A stretch of DNA of 62,295 bases. Origin: a virus. Where the stretch lies: positions 1 to 62,295 of the IMG/VR virus record IMGVR_UViG_3300034093_000922. One strand, given 5' to 3'. Under the pieces are notes generated by a model. The model searched no databases. It was not told the origin of the DNA and worked only from the letters and a program-made list of their open reading frames with translations. The position numbers and the translations under genes were made by a program. Shown here piece after piece: positions 4,035 to 46,177 of this stretch; position 1 is the first letter of the stretch; each line of letters opens with the position of its first letter.

Positions 4035-4392
4035 ATATGTAATCTATCCAATAAGTAGATAAACTATCTATACGCGATGCTCCCCCGTGCTCTACGTGTA
4101 GTAATCTATTAGGTGCTAAATAAATACCAAAATGTATTATTAACTTTGTCTTTCTTGACTTAAATGCTATTACATCATAATTTTTAAGCTCTGTCAAGTT
4201 AACTTTTACAGAATACCTTAACGCCCATTGATCTATGTATTCTGTAGTAAAGGTCTTTATCCAACTTATATCATAAGGATATGTCGGTAGACTAAACTCT
4301 AAATTTAGTTGATTTTTATAAAAGTGCTTAACTAAGGTTATGCAATCAAAAGTACCATATTCATGTTGTACGCCTAAATATTGTTGTACCAA
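4003..4392 (-). CDS. NlpC/P60-like peptidase, first copy
   Basis: 129 residues. A Cys in GTFDCITLVKHF and a His in LIIHFGIYLAPNRLLHVE fit the NlpC/P60 Cys-His pair, and a C-terminal IYAIYRHE strand closes the fold. It has a TTG start at 4392 with GGAG 9 bases upstream, overlapping the end of the radical SAM gene by 19 bases. Together with the next gene it supplies two tandem peptidoglycan peptidase-like domains where lambda gpK has one, presumably at the tail tip for local cell-wall opening. Confidence 0.75.
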   Translation of the reverse strand: MVQQYLGVQHEYGTFDCITLVKHFYKNQLNLEFSLPTYPYDISWIKTFTTEYIDQWALRYSVKVNLTELKNYDVIAFKSRKTKLIIHFGIYLAPNRLLHVEHGGASRIDSLSTYWIDYIYAIYRHEQLV

Positions 4393-5582
4393 GATGTGTA
4401 CTCCGGAAAGGTAGCAATAAAAGACTCATTTCTAGATAAGTCTAACTTATCATTAAACTGTTTAAACTCTTTAAGAAGATGCGAATCATCACTAGAGTTC
4501 ATATATAATATCCAGCTATTAATATTATGAATCTCGGAAGGGTCAAGTATGCTTATATATTTAGTTAGGAAACTAGTATATAATTCTGTAAGTTTAGCTT
4601 TAACATCTAATGGTAGACATGTTATAGACTGAGATTCTGGATTTATCTGTATAGTTCCATTTAAATATACATTACGTTTTTTGCACCATAGTATTAAATT
4701 AGGCATAGATGTTATGCTATATATATTAATTACAGCTCCTATAGTACTAATATGCTTTGAAAACTTATTATAATTATCTTCAAACTTTGACCAAACTAAG
4801 CCACTTCGTACATACTCTGCTTTTTTTCCGTAACCATCTACACTAGGCGATAGCTCTACGTTTTTAAAATTAGACCAGATAGCCTCTAGATCATATTTTT
4901 TATATTTTGAGTAACTTAAATTAGTGTTATAGCTTAGATTTATATTACTTGCAAGGTTACGATCTATTAAGAATTCTAACAGCTTATAGTGCCCATCTTG
5001 AACTATCGGCTCTCCACCGCCAAAATATACATCTTGTATACTAGAAGCTATATCAGGTAAACTATCCCAAAAAATAACGTTATTAGTATAATTATCTATA
5101 GCTTTATATTTTTTATAGGGATACTCTTTATACCAACTAGTAGAAGAAGCAGGTCCACACATTCTGCATTTAAAGTTGCATAGATTACCAAAACGTATGT
5201 CTAAGTATATAGGTTTATTTTTTATACTACCATCTGTAACTGTATAATCTTGTACGAAGGCATATTTAGAATACTTGGTGTTGTTACTCTGCCTGCTACT
5301 AGTAGCTCCGGCTTTTTCTTTATCATAGCAAGCTTGTTTACATTCTGTAGGTATCTCACCTTGTAAAAAACTATTTCTTACTGACTTATAATTATCATTA
5401 TTCCACACATCAAGTAAAGCTTGATCTGACGTACCTAATACTTTAGTACCACTCATGTATTCTGAGAAACAACAAAGCTTATAGTCACCTTCTATACTTC
5501 CAAACATATGAATCCAAGGTAATATGCAACCTTTAACTTTATTGTTTTGGGACTGTTCTTCCTGATGCAGGGAAACCTCCAA
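4374..5582 (-). CDS. Radical SAM enzyme embedded in the tail tip operon
   Basis: About 402 residues. The radical SAM cluster motif CxxxCxxC is seen as CNFKCRMC (C135, C139, C142), preceded by a strand (YLDIRFGNL) and followed by a GGGEPI-type glycine motif near residue 190 (VYFGGGEP), which binds AdoMet. Extra Cys at 19, 37, 38, 81 and 85 suggest a second, twitch-like cluster region. Such enzymes perform AdoMet radical chemistry, often modifying peptides; the substrate here is unknown. It overlaps the 3' end of gpL by 44 bases. The start is uncertain: TTG at 5582, or a CTG at 5570 preceded by GGAGG. Its place between L and K is unusual. Confidence 0.85.
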   Translation of the reverse strand: MEVSLHQEEQSQNNKVKGCILPWIHMFGSIEGDYKLCCFSEYMSGTKVLGTSDQALLDVWNNDNYKSVRNSFLQGEIPTECKQACYDKEKAGATSSRQSNNTKYSKYAFVQDYTVTDGSIKNKPIYLDIRFGNLCNFKCRMCGPASSTSWYKEYPYKKYKAIDNYTNNVIFWDSLPDIASSIQDVYFGGGEPIVQDGHYKLLEFLIDRNLASNINLSYNTNLSYSKYKKYDLEAIWSNFKNVELSPSVDGYGKKAEYVRSGLVWSKFEDNYNKFSKHISTIGAVINIYSITSMPNLILWCKKRNVYLNGTIQINPESQSITCLPLDVKAKLTELYTSFLTKYISILDPSEIHNINSWILYMNSSDDSHLLKEFKQFNDKLDLSRNESFIATFPEYTSWYNNI

Positions 5583-19130: not shown

Positions 19131-20504
19131 TTAACCTGCGTTAACGTTAACAGCGTAAGCGTATTTAGCAGAGCTAAGAGCCGCATCAGCAACAGTTGTA
19201 AGAGCTTTGAAGTCAAAACGAGTTGACATATACATAGCTGTTACTTGTTGACGTGGTTCGTACTCAGATTCAATTTCAATACCACGACGTTCTGCGATCA
19301 TAAATCCTGGCTTGTACAGTAGAGTACCTAGAGCGTTAGCAGTTGTACCAACGTTGTCAAGGAATTCAGAAACTACGATTGGAATACCGTAGACAGCGCC
19401 AACAGAACCGGTTAGGTAAGTAGCGTTTGGTCCAAATTTATCAACAGTTTGGAAATCTGAAGTAGTAACTAGGTTGTTATAGCCTTGGATAGATGTAACA
19501 TAAACTAGATCATTTCCTAGTTGTAGGCCATATTTACCCATAGCAGTACGAGCAGCTGCGATATCTGAAGGATCAGCTTTATCGTTTGCTGAACCAGTTG
19601 ATACTGATAGAGAAGCTGATTGAGCTAGCTTAGTAACACCAGTAATAACAGAGGCATAACCGTTAGCAGCACCTACTGTGATAGCATTTGTTGGTGAAGC
19701 TGTAAAGCCTGTTAGAGCGCCTGTACCACGAAGAATAGACTTATCAATAGCGCGAGCTAGACGACGAGTCGCAGCAGCACGTAGGAAATCTAGTAGTGGT
19801 AGAACTGTATCTTCTTCTTCGTCTTTGGCTAGGTGAGTTGTAGCCATAAACTTATGTGGAGTAAAGTCTACAGAAGAGATAGTGTTTTGATTAGAAGTTG
19901 GAACGTTTGTGATGTCACCAATACCGGTAGAGTATGTACCAGATTTGAACATTGCAACATCGCCGTCTGTATCTTCATCAGCAACTGGTACGCGGAATGT
20001 CTTAGCGTCTACTGCTAGACGGTTGAACATAGGAGCAATAACTAGTTGTTGTTCCATTTCTGTGTAGATGTTGGAAGAGAAGTTAGCTAGGAACTGATCT
20101 ACAGTAGTGACAGCCTTCATACGTGAACCGAATTTTGTATCAAATACATCACGCTTGTTTAGCATTTTAGAAAGAAGAACGGCATTAGCCATTTCTTTCT
20201 CAGAGAATTGAGCCCCACGGCTTTGATTCTCTTGATATAGCATTTTGGTTGACTGTAATGCTTTGATTTCATCTTTGTACTTTGAAATCTCGAATTGCAG
20301 CTCTTTAAGCTCTGCTTGTTCTGCATATGAGGCACCACCGCGTAGGTCTTGTGCATCAGCGTTTTTAATAAGTGCTTCACCAGTTTTTTCAACCAGATTT
20401 GCAACTCTAGGATCAGAAACAGTATTAACTGTTTTTCTGTTTTCGACTTGTACAGATTTAGTTGCTTCTGTAAGGTCGATTGTTTCTACGACTTGTTCAG
20501 CCAT
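19131..20504 (-). CDS. Major capsid protein from internal start
   Basis: In-frame internal ATG at 20504 (MAEQVVETIDL) preceded by AAAGGAGAACGACACC, one of the best ribosome-binding sites in the virion operon. It would give a 457-residue protein: about 100 residues of acidic/coiled-coil delta domain and an HK97-fold shell domain. This would supply capsid in excess over protease-fused copies, as the geometry of a shell requires. It is a second product of the same frame; its existence is inferred from the signal. Confidence 0.7.
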   Translation of the reverse strand: MAEQVVETIDLTEATKSVQVENRKTVNTVSDPRVANLVEKTGEALIKNADAQDLRGGASYAEQAELKELQFEISKYKDEIKALQSTKMLYQENQSRGAQFSEKEMANAVLLSKMLNKRDVFDTKFGSRMKAVTTVDQFLANFSSNIYTEMEQQLVIAPMFNRLAVDAKTFRVPVADEDTDGDVAMFKSGTYSTGIGDITNVPTSNQNTISSVDFTPHKFMATTHLAKDEEEDTVLPLLDFLRAAATRRLARAIDKSILRGTGALTGFTASPTNAITVGAANGYASVITGVTKLAQSASLSVSTGSANDKADPSDIAAARTAMGKYGLQLGNDLVYVTSIQGYNNLVTTSDFQTVDKFGPNATYLTGSVGAVYGIPIVVSEFLDNVGTTANALGTLLYKPGFMIAERRGIEIESEYEPRQQVTAMYMSTRFDFKALTTVADAALSSAKYAYAVNVNAG

Positions 20505-21839
20505 GGTGTCGTTCTCCTTTGTTGAATCTTCGTGAAGCTCTTTGTTTACAATAGCGTCTTCACTAGTATTGTTTTTGTTAGTTTTAGTGACTTGGGAAAT
20601 TTCTTCTGCATTCACATTAAGTACATTATCACAATCTTTACCTTCTGCGTCAATCTCTAAAAATTTAAATATTGGGCTTTGGGCAGTTGCAAGTTTCAGG
20701 ACCTTATACATTTTTTCTTTATAATTTACTAGGTCCCCATTTTGAAGTTCTGCTGTGTCTGCAGATAACAAGCTAACGAAGGGTATTACCTCGTTCGGGT
20801 CACGAGCTTGGAATTCTTCTTCGTCGTCTTTTTCAGCGTCTATTGTTGAAGCTGTATCAGCAGATTTAGTTTCTACTTCATCTGAAATGGCAATAGTTTC
20901 TATAGTAGTATTAATAGTTTTTTCTGAAAGTTCTTCAGAAATAACTTCTACCTCAAAACTAGCTTTTTCAGCTGTTAGTTCAGGAGCATCCACTGTAGCA
21001 GCTTTAGTCTCCTCAACTATATCTTGTTTTGATGTATTCATTGCTTCCTCCTCTGTCGGAGATAACGGTCTTTGGTTAGTTAAAAGACCTTCCTCCATAT
21101 CATGAATTGGCACGCCTACCATGGTAATACTGTGAGAATGCCCTTCAGCTTCTAATAATATACCGTTGACAATTTTATGAGCGTGATTCGTCATATGCGA
21201 AGCGTAAGTTGTTACACCGTTTCCGTTTTCATCAACTTCTACAGTATGATAGTGACCAGAAGCCATATCAGTAATACCAGCTTTAATTCTACGCATTGCT
21301 TTTTGATCATCTTGATCAATTTCTTTAAATTCTTTTACGAATTTACTATAGTCATCCGATGAGTCGAAACTTTTACGGATACTAAATAGAGAATCTTGAT
21401 TGCAAGGAACACTTACAATAGAGATTTCTAGTAATTCTACTTCTGTAATAGTCATAGAATCATCACTGCGATTATACTTACCGTCTTTTACACGAAAACC
21501 AACACTAAAGCTTTTAAGGGCTCCATCTTTAATCAGTGTATGAATTCCGTGATTTGTTTCAGCAGCATCGCTAACTGCACCTTCTACGTAAATACCTTTT
21601 TTATCAACTATTATTTTTTCAATACGCCCGATTGGGCAATCATGTTTATGTTGATATAGCATTACTGGATTTTTTCTATAGTTCTCTACGCCTTTAGCCC
21701 ATGCTTCAGCGGTGACAACGTCACCAGAACGGTCTTTAGTAATAGTATTAGCATATCCAGCAATTTTTAAAGACTTAGAGCCTTTTGAAAAGGATTTAGC
21801 TTCGAAGGAGCTGTTTAAATAAAATGTTTTATCTGTCAT
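19131..21839 (-). CDS. Prohead protease-major capsid fusion (HK97 type)
   Basis: 902 residues. Residues 20-155 are an HK97-family prohead protease: His in MLYQHKHDCPIGR (H64/H66), Ser in ALKSFSVGFR (S110/S112), acidic ELLEISIVSVP. Residues 185-250 are His-rich (HMTNHAHK, EGHSHS). Residues 260-445 are acidic linker, 490-560 a coiled coil like a delta/scaffold domain, and about 570-902 the HK97-fold capsid protein. The frame is continuous, but an internal ATG at 20504 has a strong ribosome-binding site. The start overlaps the portal stop (ATGA). Confidence 0.9.
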   Translation of the reverse strand: MTDKTFYLNSSFEAKSFSKGSKSLKIAGYANTITKDRSGDVVTAEAWAKGVENYRKNPVMLYQHKHDCPIGRIEKIIVDKKGIYVEGAVSDAAETNHGIHTLIKDGALKSFSVGFRVKDGKYNRSDDSMTITEVELLEISIVSVPCNQDSLFSIRKSFDSSDDYSKFVKEFKEIDQDDQKAMRRIKAGITDMASGHYHTVEVDENGNGVTTYASHMTNHAHKIVNGILLEAEGHSHSITMVGVPIHDMEEGLLTNQRPLSPTEEEAMNTSKQDIVEETKAATVDAPELTAEKASFEVEVISEELSEKTINTTIETIAISDEVETKSADTASTIDAEKDDEEEFQARDPNEVIPFVSLLSADTAELQNGDLVNYKEKMYKVLKLATAQSPIFKFLEIDAEGKDCDNVLNVNAEEISQVTKTNKNNTSEDAIVNKELHEDSTKENDTMAEQVVETIDLTEATKSVQVENRKTVNTVSDPRVANLVEKTGEALIKNADAQDLRGGASYAEQAELKELQFEISKYKDEIKALQSTKMLYQENQSRGAQFSEKEMANAVLLSKMLNKRDVFDTKFGSRMKAVTTVDQFLANFSSNIYTEMEQQLVIAPMFNRLAVDAKTFRVPVADEDTDGDVAMFKSGTYSTGIGDITNVPTSNQNTISSVDFTPHKFMATTHLAKDEEEDTVLPLLDFLRAAATRRLARAIDKSILRGTGALTGFTASPTNAITVGAANGYASVITGVTKLAQSASLSVSTGSANDKADPSDIAAARTAMGKYGLQLGNDLVYVTSIQGYNNLVTTSDFQTVDKFGPNATYLTGSVGAVYGIPIVVSEFLDNVGTTANALGTLLYKPGFMIAERRGIEIESEYEPRQQVTAMYMSTRFDFKALTTVADAALSSAKYAYAVNVNAG

Positions 21840-33419: not shown

Positions 33420-33869
33420 TTATTCAAGTAAATCACGCATCAGTCTATCGTAGTTGTTAACTTGAATTGCTACTGCAGGGCCTTTTTCTGTAGGTCTTAG
33501 CCTATCTTCAACGTCATGTAGATGTTTCATCCAATCAAGTAGATCCTTTTTCGAATATATGCCAGTCTCCATAGCTTCTTCAAGCTTTTGATCAATAACC
33601 TGGTTAATAAGGTTGATGCGCTTTACTCGATTAAGATATCCTTGCGTAGCAAACACTGAATCAACATAGTTTTTAACTTCTTTTTTATCTAGTGCGGACG
33701 TGACACGATCTGTTGATATGCCATACTCATCTGCAATAGTCTCAATGTCTTTACCGCTTAAATAATCATTAGCAATGGCCAGAATCACTGGGTCAAGCGG
33801 TGAAGTTTGAAGAGTGCGGTTTAGAGCTTCAACAGTAGTGGTCGGGCTCATAATCTCTTGTTTAGCCAT
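33420..33869 (-). CDS. terS: Terminase small subunit
   Basis: 149 residues. Residues 25-65 form a helix-turn-helix (LAIANDYLSGKDIETIADEYGIS; quoted in part; STDRVTSALDKKEVKNYVD), followed by the helical ring region (RVKRINLINQVIDQKLEEA) and a DLLDWMKHLHDVEDRLRP block typical of small terminase subunits in marine phages. It would recognise the packaging site and feed TerL. It lies 8 kb from terL within the same operon, an unusual separation. AAAGGAAATATA precedes the ATG. Confidence 0.75.
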   Translation of the reverse strand: MAKQEIMSPTTTVEALNRTLQTSPLDPVILAIANDYLSGKDIETIADEYGISTDRVTSALDKKEVKNYVDSVFATQGYLNRVKRINLINQVIDQKLEEAMETGIYSKKDLLDWMKHLHDVEDRLRPTEKGPAVAIQVNNYDRLMRDLLE

Positions 33870-35483: not shown

Positions 35484-35520
35484 CGCGCAAGATTATTGCG
35501 CGCAAGATTATTGCGCGCAA
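35484..35520. repeat. 15-bp GC-rich direct repeats downstream of the HNH gene
   Basis: CGCGCAAGATTATTG occurs at 35484 and 35499 with a partial third copy at 35514. Each contains the small inverted repeat GCGCAA/TTGCGC, so the RNA forms alternative hairpins just after the HNH stop; a transcription end is possible. Confidence 0.5.
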
Positions 35521-35537: not shown

Positions 35538-35852
35538 TCAGAGGGGGCGATATCCTTTCGATATTTTCACAGCGCCAAGATATTTTGCCCAACGGGCGCG
35601 GCGGCTTTGGATCATTGCAGGGCTTTCGGTATATTCTGCAAAGGCAAGGAAGGTAACCGATACCGCGCCTTGCTTGCGGTTGCAATTGCCGCAAAGGCGA
35701 ACAAAATTTTCTGCTACCATAGCGCCGCCCTTAGACTCTGCAACGATATGGCCGCACTCGTCAGCATCCCAAGTGCCGCAAGCGGCGCAGCAGGTATGGC
35801 GGGCGAAAACCGCGTTACGGATGGCAGCGGGGATGCGGGCTTTTTTGGTCAT
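35538..35852 (-). CDS. HNH endonuclease, GC-rich
   Basis: 104 residues. TCCAACGT-type Cys pair (CCAACG), DECGHIVAESKGG with the HNH His, NFVRLCGNCNRKQGA with the Asn and second Cys pair: a complete zinc-bound HNH fold. AGGAG is 6 bases before ATG 35852. Its base composition is clearly more GC-rich than the virion genes, so it is probably a recent arrival, either a homing nuclease or an anti-competitor nuclease. The GTTC array lies directly upstream and may control it. Confidence 0.85.
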   Translation of the reverse strand: MTKKARIPAAIRNAVFARHTCCAACGTWDADECGHIVAESKGGAMVAENFVRLCGNCNRKQGAVSVTFLAFAEYTESPAMIQSRRARWAKYLGAVKISKGYRPL

Positions 35853-35959
35853 GGCGTTCTCCTATGGGCTTGCTTGCCCTATGACTAACATTCGCACGAA
35901 TCGCGGTAGGGGTCAAGCGATAAATGCAAATAAATCGCATTATTTTTCACTTTTTTTTC

Positions 35960-36082
35960 GTTCACGTTTTGTTCCTGATTCGTTCACGTTTTGTTCTACG
36001 TTCACGATTCGTTCCCGTTTTGTTCACGTTTTGTTCCTGATTCGTTCTGCATAGGGGAACAAACAGGGAACAAAGGATGAAC
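35960..36082. repeat. Phased GTTC/GAAC array (LexA-box-like)
   Basis: GTTC begins at 35960, 35971, 35982, 35993, 36000, 36011, 36022, 36033 and 36044, and GAAC at 36057, 36068 and 36079. All steps are 11 bp except the 7-bp step to 36000 and the 13-bp step to the GAAC set. This makes seven overlapping GTTC-N7-GTTC and two GAAC-N7-GAAC boxes, the form bound by alphaproteobacterial LexA. Longer 22-bp units (GTTCACGTTTTGTTC plus CTGATTC) repeat inside it. It separates leftward HNH from the rightward cassette region. An iteron origin is the main alternative. Confidence 0.8.
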
Positions 36083-36134
36083 GTAATATTATTGCGCAGA
36101 ATGATCAATCTTCGCAATAAAATTATGCATTATG

Positions 36135-36166
36135 TTGTGGTGCGTCACGGCGTGGCGTGCTATAAA
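36135..36166 (+). promoter_or_regulatory. Candidate promoter of the first rightward gene
   Basis: TATAAA at 36161-36166 sits 53 bases before ATG 36219, like the other cassette promoters, but the -35 is poor (TTGTGG at a 20-base spacer, or nothing good at 17). Confidence 0.35.
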
Positions 36167-36218: not shown

Positions 36219-36458
36219 ATGACCAACTTTGCAACCCACTATATCGTTCGCCAAACCGAAAAAGCTATCGGTGTTGTAACCCTGCCCGCTATGGGTGCGA
36301 AAAAGCTGTTGTGGGTTCCACGCGCTAAGATTGAGTCGATGAACGAAATTGATACCTATTCGCCTTTGTTCGAAATTGCAGGCGAAAAATTTCGCCGTCA
36401 ATCTATCCCTGTAAATCTGCAAGTGAATGCAGAATGGCTTGCAAAGGTGCAAGCCTAA
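36219..36458 (+). CDS. Hypothetical protein, first gene of the cassette region
   Basis: 79 residues (ATHYIVRQTEKAIGVVTLPA; KKLLWVPRAKIESMN). Mixed alpha/beta, slightly basic, no recognised motif. AAAGG lies 9 bases before the ATG. It is the gene nearest to the GTTC array and shares a transcript with the next three small genes, since no promoter or hairpin separates them. Confidence 0.65.
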   Translation: MTNFATHYIVRQTEKAIGVVTLPAMGAKKLLWVPRAKIESMNEIDTYSPLFEIAGEKFRRQSIPVNLQVNAEWLAKVQA

Positions 36459-37562: not shown

Positions 37563-37612
37563 TAGCGCCAGCTGGAACAAACAGTGAACAGGATGGGCCC
37601 TGAAATATCGTG

Positions 37613-40068: not shown

Positions 40069-40275
40069 ATGCAAGAGATCTGGAAAGCTTGGCCGCAATG
40101 GCTAACAGATGCGGCCATTGCAGCCTATCGCGCGGGTGAAACGCCAGAAGCAATAGGCGCGGTTCTAAAACGCCGCCCTGCGGTTGTCCGCTCTAAGCTA
40201 GTGCGGGAAGGGGTATATATATCAAAAACCGCTGCACGCAAAATTTATGTAGCCGAATCAGCTGAGGGGTTCTAG
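40069..40275 (+). CDS. Short HTH paralog without C-terminal domain
   Basis: 68 residues. WLTDAAIAAYRAGETPEAIG and VVRSKLVREGVYIS match the helix-turn-helix half of the paralogs at 40628, 43857 and 45884, including the invariant RSKLVREGVY. The C-terminal GPTKKE...GATKE half is replaced by an unrelated short tail, so it may act as a competitor or an antagonist. Starts directly after the exonuclease stop. Confidence 0.7.
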   Translation: MQEIWKAWPQWLTDAAIAAYRAGETPEAIGAVLKRRPAVVRSKLVREGVYISKTAARKIYVAESAEGF

Positions 40276-40627: not shown

Positions 40628-40942
40628 ATGGCTGCTGAGAAAAAAGTAAACTACACTGAAGCACAGACTGTCGCAATGATCGCTAACTATCAAGCGGGTC
40701 AATCGGTCGAGGACATTGCAGACGCAATGGGCAAGGCTGTTCGGTCGGTTCGGTCGAAGCTGGTTCGGGAAGGCGTGTATGTCGCCGCTGAAAAGGCTGC
40801 AAAGTCGAAGCGTGAGGAAGGCCCCACGAAAAAGGAAATGCTGCAAGAGCTGGAAACTCTCGCCACCTTTCCCGTTGAAGGCTTCATGGGTGCAACTAAA
40901 GAGTCGATTCAAGCTCTTATTTCGCATCTAAAGACCGCTTAA
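40628..40942 (+). CDS. HTH/HeH-type putative regulator, paralog A
   Basis: 104 residues in two parts. Residues 8-52 form a helix-turn-helix (YTEAQTVAMIANYQAGQSVE; DIADAMGKAVRSVRSKLV), with REGVYVA at the end. Residues 62-104 (GPTKKEMLQELETL; VEGFMGATKESIQALI) look like a HeH/SAP-type helix-extended loop-helix, another DNA-binding fold. A role as transcription factor for the repeated cassette promoters is inferred. AGGAGAG before the ATG. Confidence 0.75.
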   Translation: MAAEKKVNYTEAQTVAMIANYQAGQSVEDIADAMGKAVRSVRSKLVREGVYVAAEKAAKSKREEGPTKKEMLQELETLATFPVEGFMGATKESIQALISHLKTA

Positions 40943-43856: not shown

Positions 43857-44168
43857 ATGGCTGTTCAAAAATCCGCGAACTACACTGCCGAGTTGACCGC
43901 TGCTATCGTTGACCAATACACCTCTGGTCAAGGTGTCGAAGCTATTGCCGAGGCTATCGGCAAAAGCGTTCGTTCGGTCCGCTCCAAACTCGTCCGCGAG
44001 GGCGTTTATGTGGCGGCTGAAAAGCCCAAAGGTGCGGCCCGTGAGTTGGGTCCGACCAAAAAAGAACTTTTGATTGAGTTGGAAGCGTTGGTTTCCTACC
44101 CCGTCGAAGGTTTGATGGGTGCGACCAAAGAAGCCATTGCGGCTTTGATCGCTAACGCAAAAAACTAA
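43857..44168 (+). CDS. HTH/HeH-type putative regulator, paralog B
   Basis: 103 residues from ATG 43857 after AAAAGGAG. HTH half: YTAELTAAIVDQYTSGQGVE, AIAEAIGKSVRSVRSKLV; HeH-like half: LGPTKKELLIELEALV, VEGLMGATKEAIAALI. About two thirds identical to paralog A by eye. Followed by a textbook terminator, so it forms a monocistronic unit. Confidence 0.75.
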   Translation: MAVQKSANYTAELTAAIVDQYTSGQGVEAIAEAIGKSVRSVRSKLVREGVYVAAEKPKGAARELGPTKKELLIELEALVSYPVEGLMGATKEAIAALIANAKN

Positions 44169-45300: not shown

Positions 45301-45559
45301 TTCTGCTAGCAATGCTGCAGCATTGCGCCAGTGCAAAACAGAAGTACAAAGTTGATGTCGGGCTGCCACGCTAAGCAATAGCTAAATTGATTTTTATGCA
45401 GCTTTGCTGTGCAAAGCACCAGTACAAAGTAGAAATTTGAAGTACAAAGGCGATCTGCTACGTTTGACCACATCTAAATGGCAGTAAGTGCTCCGCTGCG
45501 CCAGTGCAAAATAGAAACGTTTTTTTGAAGAGTGTGGCGGCAATGCTGCCGCACCTATG
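45301..45559. other. Non-coding stretch with CCAGTGCAAAA elements
   Basis: No convincing gene. It holds related copies of GCCAGTGCAAAACAGAAG at 45328, a variant ACCAGTACAAAGTAGAA at 45415 and GCCAGTGCAAAATAGAA at 45497; one more lies at 46497. AGTACAAAG follows two of them. Dispersed protein-binding sites or decayed copies of one element are the likely readings. Confidence 0.5.
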
Positions 45560-45673
45560 TTCCCGATCGGGAACATTTAGCCAAAATATCCCAACAACTG
45601 CTTATTTGTTACCGATCGGGAACATTTAGCCAAAATATCCCAACAACTGCTTATTTGTTACCGATCGGGAACA
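45560..45673. repeat. 49-bp tandem repeat with palindrome
   Basis: Two identical 49-bp units (45563-45611, 45612-45660) and a partial third (45661-45673). Each begins CCGATCGGGAACA and ends CTTATTTGTTA. The first is flanked to give a perfect 16-bp palindrome GTTCCCGATCGGGAAC at 45560-45575. Looks like an operator or partition-type array. The rest up to 45829 holds no gene. Confidence 0.75.
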
Positions 45674-45883: not shown

Positions 45884-46177
45884 ATGGCCGAGAACTACAC
45901 AGCAGAACAAACTAAGATGTTAATTGATGCCTACGCTACTGGCATGACAGTAGAAGAACTGGCTAGCCAGCTGGACAAGCCTATTCGGTCTGTCCGCAGC
46001 AAGCTGGTGCGTGAGGGCGTGTACGTTGCACAGCCTCGCAACAAAGCAGCTAAGATTGAAGGTCCTAGCAAGAAAGAACTGCTTCGCGAGCTAGAGACAC
46101 ACGGGTATACCGTAGATGGTCTCGAAGGAGCTACCAAAGAAGCTATCGCTCGTATCATCAGTGTAGTAGCAAACTGA
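45884..46177 (+). CDS. HTH/HeH-type putative regulator, paralog C
   Basis: 97 residues from ATG 45884 after AAAGGAG. HTH half: YTAEQTKMLIDAYATGMTVE, LASQLDKPIRSVRSKLV; HeH-like half: GPSKKELLRELETHG, VDGLEGATKEAIARI. The closest in layout to paralogs A and B. Lies next to the 49-bp palindromic repeats, a possible autoregulatory site. Confidence 0.75.
   Translation: MAENYTAEQTKMLIDAYATGMTVEELASQLDKPIRSVRSKLVREGVYVAQPRNKAAKIEGPSKKELLRELETHGYTVDGLEGATKEAIARIISVVAN

Follow-up and report, generated by a model that had tools for sequence, protein, structure and literature searches.

The window, by which we mean the whole 62,295-base stretch of viral DNA analysed here, carries a dense array of GTTCN7GTTC boxes. 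By sequence, the array type is conserved and specific to phages within the collections that we searched, and its geometry with respect to predicted promoters looks like that of an upstream regulatory site, not of a repressor covering its promoter. We hold it to be about an even call that the array is a two-sided upstream regulatory array serving the promoters that point outward from it.

Composition and setting of the array

The array spans positions 35960-36082 and comprises nine GTTC tetramers (starting at 35960, 35971, 35982, 35993, 36000, 36011, 36022, 36033, and 36044) and three GAAC tetramers (36057, 36068, and 36079). Together these make nine GTTCN7GTTC boxes, seven on the plus strand and two on the minus strand. 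An earlier note on this DNA had described nine GTTC and three GAAC in 123 bp, with seven overlapping boxes and two of inverted sense; both descriptions were confirmed by counting positions in the sequence. The window as a whole holds 12 boxes, including the nine in the array, against 1.08 expected from shuffles (maximum 6), and none of 20,000 first-order Markov simulations of the 366-bp intergenic region exceeded two boxes.

The tetramers fall into three blocks. GTTC block 1 (35960..35996, plus strand) contains four GTTC at 11-bp steps, forming three overlapping boxes, and GTTC block 2 (36000..36047, plus strand), offset from block 1 by 7 bp, contains five GTTC at 11-bp steps, forming four boxes. 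The GAAC block (36057..36082, minus strand), preceded by a 13-bp gap, contains three GAAC at 11-bp steps, forming two opposite-sense boxes that face the rightward gene. The 7-bp step (35993 to 36000) is the one interruption of the 11-bp steps, and the same step, with its 3-bp linker, is seen again in the related phages L144 and L148. The helical phasing proposed earlier is broken by the 7-bp step and the 13-bp gap, such that the array is not continuously phased. Its basic unit is 11 bp, and 22-bp units are merely one possible parse.

Both ends of the array are marked by further sequence. A T/A tract (35951..35958) separates the array from the predicted leftward promoter, with similar A-tracts at the same position in L140 and L148, and the element GTAATATTATTGCGC (36083..36097, plus strand) adjoins the GAAC block, with related sequence flanking the arrays of L140, L144, and L134. 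Separately, a 15-bp tandem CGCGCAAGATTATTG at 35484-35520, on the 3' side of the HNH gene, resembles the GCGCAATAATATTAC element flanking the array.

The array occupies much of the 366 bp between two divergent genes, and the earlier note was right to place it at a strand switch. To the left lies a gene for a 104-aa HNH protein (35538..35852, minus strand; PF01844 above its cut-off), the first gene of the leftward operon; to the right lies a gene for a 79-aa protein (36219..36458, plus strand), whose relatives are close neighbours of the HNH gene in the majority of related contigs. A consensus scan predicts a leftward sigma-70 promoter for the HNH gene (35887..35916, minus strand; −35 TTGACC, −10 AATGTT, spacer 18), 43 bp beyond the array. 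For the 79-aa gene, a putative rightward promoter region (36135..36166, plus strand) was read from the sequence, with a −10-like TATAAA at 36161-36166 and no good −35 at 17 bp. An isolated box, GTTCACTGTTTGTTC (37575..37589, minus strand), lies upstream of a polynucleotide-kinase-phosphatase-like gene (37739). This box and the single boxes of L133, L144, L148, and L151 are often followed, on the promoter-distal side, by CAGCTGGCGC or a close form. We considered the 79-aa protein as a binder of the array and rejected it, since its model is beta-rich with a C-terminal helix and no evident helix-turn-helix, and its family is found only in the HNH group.

The window's large terminase, encoded more than 10 kb from the array, is nearest to those of T5-like phages of gammaproteobacteria (~40% identity). 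A search of the bacterial genome collection gave no member of the HNH family, and the window phage is therefore probably not a prophage. The virus record contains no sequence beyond the window. Other features of the genome include a 902-aa protein (19131-21839) that matches both the prohead protease and the major capsid protein of T5-like phages, apparently fused; a 402-aa protein in the virion region (4374-5582) that by eye resembles radical SAM proteins; and a 149-aa protein (33420-33869) with a helix-turn-helix look, possibly a small terminase, which had no Pfam match. At 45558-45673 a 49-bp unit is repeated 2.4 times, each copy including the palindrome TTCCCGATCGGGAA or a near variant of it, giving an operator-like look. 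Four paralogous small proteins (40069-40275, 40628-40942, 43857-44168, and 45884-46177) contain a helix-turn-helix-like stretch; the last is phrog_323, D5-like, and paralogues are also present in the L144 record. Among 19 long records, these D5-like small proteins occur only in the window and the L144 record.

Arrays in related and unrelated phages

We collected relatives of the window through the HNH protein alone; the motif played no part, and the sample is hence free of motif selection. Arrays lie at the same place in L131 and L132 (both window-like), L133, L134/L135, L140, L144, L148 (11 boxes), and L150, and a single box lies nearby in L136, L141-L143, and L151-L154; L137-L139 have no box at the corresponding place. 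The earlier note had named absence from sister phages as grounds for abandoning its reading, and the reverse is seen, with most HNH relatives carrying the array or single boxes. In L134 and L135, the intergenic region upstream of the HNH gene also holds three GAAC plus a long array of 10-bp units, CCTCGATCGG / CCTCGTTCGG.

Beyond these relatives, the pattern GTTCACGNTTTGTTCN7GTTC occurs in 111 viral stretches versus one for the reversed control, a set with locally high redundancy and many related contigs, in which cases and counts are not independent. The same pattern is found in 16 stretches across 257 Gb of bacterial genomes, about chance level by our estimate. Replacing ACG by CTG or TTG gives a variant pattern that occurs in 74 viral stretches. 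From boxes within arrays that were not used in selection, we derived the consensus GTTC-[ACT]-[C>T]-[G>C]-N-TTT-GTTC. Arrays reach 14 boxes, and a contig can hold up to three of them.

The contigs that carry arrays encode large terminases of several families as well as an Sf6-type small terminase. By three marker proteins, their nearest named phages include Pelagibacter phages HTVC027P, HTVC023P, and HTVC106P, Sinorhizobium phage phiM5, and Roseobacter phages. Eight of these nearest relatives were read and have no array, and neither the region nor synthetic arrays had a blastn match among named phages; HTVC106P has one single consensus box, GTTCTTGTTTTGTTC, upstream of its terminase. Three related genomes (L325, L375, and L376) have sites of the array type upstream of a gene that we take to be mraZ-like, not an SOS gene. 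Four Halobacillus genomes (L263, L264, L271, and L274) share a triple GTTC site, GTTCACGATTTGTTCACAAAATGTTC, right behind a gene end. In isolate prophages (L022, L088, and L119), another kind of repeat, GTTCACTTGTTGTTC, falls within a coding frame, and we set it aside. Overall, the recurrence of the array across unrelated environmental phages, together with its rarity in bacterial chromosomes, suggests a shared way of controlling phage genes.

Orientation, promoter distance, and a model for two-sided control

Among 49 arrays with both senses, the GTTC block comes before the GAAC block in 41, after it in 5, and the two are mixed in 3. This order is unchanged by reverse complementation and is therefore a property of the arrays, not of strand choice; with GTTC first, each block faces outward. 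Across all array loci, scanned at a threshold fixed once and without optimisation, the GAAC-facing ends (187) have 45 predicted sigma-70 promoters 30-90 bp out and the opposite ends (186) have 15. All of these promoters are consensus predictions; most lie 30-90 bp from the boxes, a few nearer, and they are preceded by single boxes as well as by arrays.

Within the HNH group, some of whose promoters are themselves related, the end of the box and the −35 are separated by 41-43 bp at seven sites (the window, L133, L135, three in L144, and L148), by 31-34 bp at four others, and by 56 bp at a further three. In many cases, the DNA between box and −35 is dense with A-tracts. The array, its conservation, the orientation rule, and the distances to predicted promoters are direct observations.

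Promoter use, protein binding, the sign of regulation, and the identity of the binder are parts of a model that we infer from these sequences. A DNA-binding protein recognising the 11-bp unit TTTGTTCHYGN would bind side by side along the array, with the GTTC block serving the leftward promoter (the HNH gene followed by the virion operon) and the GAAC block serving the rightward promoter (the 79-aa gene and the small-gene cassette). From ~30-90 bp upstream of the −35, the protein could work as an activator or form a nucleoprotein complex that sets promoter activity, in either case leaving the promoter uncovered. The binder would be supplied by the host.

A host protein is probably the binder, favoured by two results from the phages themselves: no protein family is common to all array phages (the best is shared by at most 7 of 19 long records), and 50 array-phage records contain no LexA- or OmpR-type domain. 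These records are mostly fragments, in which a phage-encoded binder could be missed. Two observations run counter to upstream control. Several of the predicted promoters are perfect TTGACA-N17-TATAAT sequences, which should need no activator, and the promoter distances form no single strict helical series.

A bolder reading, which we consider less likely than not, is that phage-specific TTTGTTCHYGN arrays facing divergent promoters are common to many unrelated, apparently non-integrating environmental phages, and are read by one host protein, either a non-LexA protein or LexA acting as an activator. If one host protein does read the arrays across several unrelated lineages, the array would mark a shared host-control point over virulent phages in lakes and seas. 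If that reader is LexA, the SOS system would be linked to non-integrating phages, possibly with LexA activating.

LexA, other explanations, and known systems

The leading single candidate for the binder is LexA or a protein of LexA-like specificity, although we consider this identification doubtful. As the earlier note had recognised, the core of the array has, in many copies, the alphaproteobacterial LexA operator form GTTCN7GTTC. In 58 alphaproteobacterial genomes, the form with spacer HYSNTTT is enriched (33 matches versus 8 in the control), and its matches adjoin, among others, genes that we read as lexA and imuA-like. Scored with a matrix built from the phage boxes, alphaproteobacterial SOS-gene boxes such as GTTCTTGTTTTGTTC score as high as the phage boxes; among host spacers only SOS forms such as TTGTTTT score well, and in host boxes that precede lexA itself the spacers resemble TAGTTTG. 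Under a lexA-promoter matrix, phage spacers have a median score of −3.6, compared with 8.7 for boxes upstream of lexA and −5.2 for random, and are thus little better than random in their likeness to host lexA boxes.

The box that phages prefer is likewise not enriched at host genes. GTTCACSNTTTGTTC, with 6 matches among 385 alphaproteobacterial genomes, does not exceed its reversed control, the preferred spacer (ACG) being unenriched, and GTTCACGNTTTGTTC has 5 matches in 398 Pseudomonadota genomes, below control. LexA is hence a possible binder whose core specificity fits, while the spacer preferences differ, the phage-preferred box is unenriched in alphaproteobacteria, and the boxes mostly lie 30-90 bp off the predicted promoters. 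No LexA DNA-binding domain was found in the 50 array-phage records. Activation mediated by LexA is on record, according to literature cited by PMC6182141, and our search for work on LexA sites in virulent phages found no paper describing such arrays.

In a classical host LexA operator array, LexA would repress phage transcription until DNA damage, with cooperative binding making a tight switch. The core is the published Caulobacter LexA motif (PMC12700426), a LexA site is predicted at the Dinoroseobacter GTA cluster (PMC6473078), and the HYSNTTT enrichment near lexA and imuA-like genes, the Pelagibacter, Sinorhizobium, and Roseobacter phages among the named relatives of other array phages, and the single box of HTVC106P all agree with this idea. 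We nonetheless judge it unlikely: boxes usually do not overlap predicted promoters, the preferred spacer is unlike that of host boxes, and the absence of the HNH family from bacterial genomes makes a lysogenic switch unlikely.

Upstream control would also fit a host response regulator of the OmpR/PhoB type, an explanation that we regard as quite unlikely. Proteins of this family bind tandem 11-bp direct repeats upstream of the −35, and the array has both an 11-bp tandem unit and that position relative to the predicted −35. However, the motif is unenriched in proteobacterial genomes, and Trans_reg_C (PF00486) is present in 0 of 50 array-phage records, which leaves room for a regulator of host origin; we know of no host motif for such regulators that matches the array.

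It is improbable that the array acts as a sponge, with numerous sites on each of numerous phage genomes drawing off a host protein (LexA or another) and thereby inducing or altering host regulation. Arrays of up to 14 boxes, and up to three arrays per contig, would suit such a role, and the LexA titration put forward earlier could occur. A pure decoy, however, has no need of the orientation and promoter-distance rules that we observe and would leave them unexplained, and isolated single boxes exist.

An origin or a packaging site is less likely. For a replication origin, which we consider very improbable, the array offers tandem repeats in the manner of iterons, A/T tracts and AT-rich sequence on both sides, divergent promoters, and a strand switch. 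The 22-bp iteron origin of the earlier note finds agreement in the repeats and AT-rich flanks and no further: no initiator was recognised among the adjacent proteins scanned, single boxes precede other promoters, GC skew tracks gene direction, and the motif is common to lineages without a shared replication protein. A packaging site read by the small terminase subunit is the least probable of these roles, since the enrichment of arrays within 1 kb of a terminase gene (52% versus 25% for random positions) equally fits the start of a late operon, the identical motif lies beside different terminase families, and the window's own large terminase is distant.

Among known systems, iteron origins share tandem repeats and AT-rich flanks with the array, but the adjacent proteins scanned include no recognised initiator, and the box occurs in single copies before other promoters. 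OmpR/PhoB tandem sites are generally known as 11-bp head-to-tail units upstream of the −35, as here, but their core sequence is different and the 50 array-phage records are without such a protein. The tectivirus GIL01, with dinBox1-3 (PMC6182141), is a phage in which early and late promoters both make use of sites for the LexA of the host; GIL01 differs in having few boxes, a Firmicute host, a temperate lifestyle, and the partner proteins gp7 and gp6. With the alphaproteobacterial LexA operator the array shares a GTTC direct repeat at 11 bp, a spacer that begins with A, C, or T and has G or C at position 3, and, as in many SOS boxes, a T-rich spacer end. The phage array differs in that it comprises many overlapping copies upstream of a predicted promoter instead of over it, and in that spacer position 2 is preferentially C in phages and T or A in host boxes.
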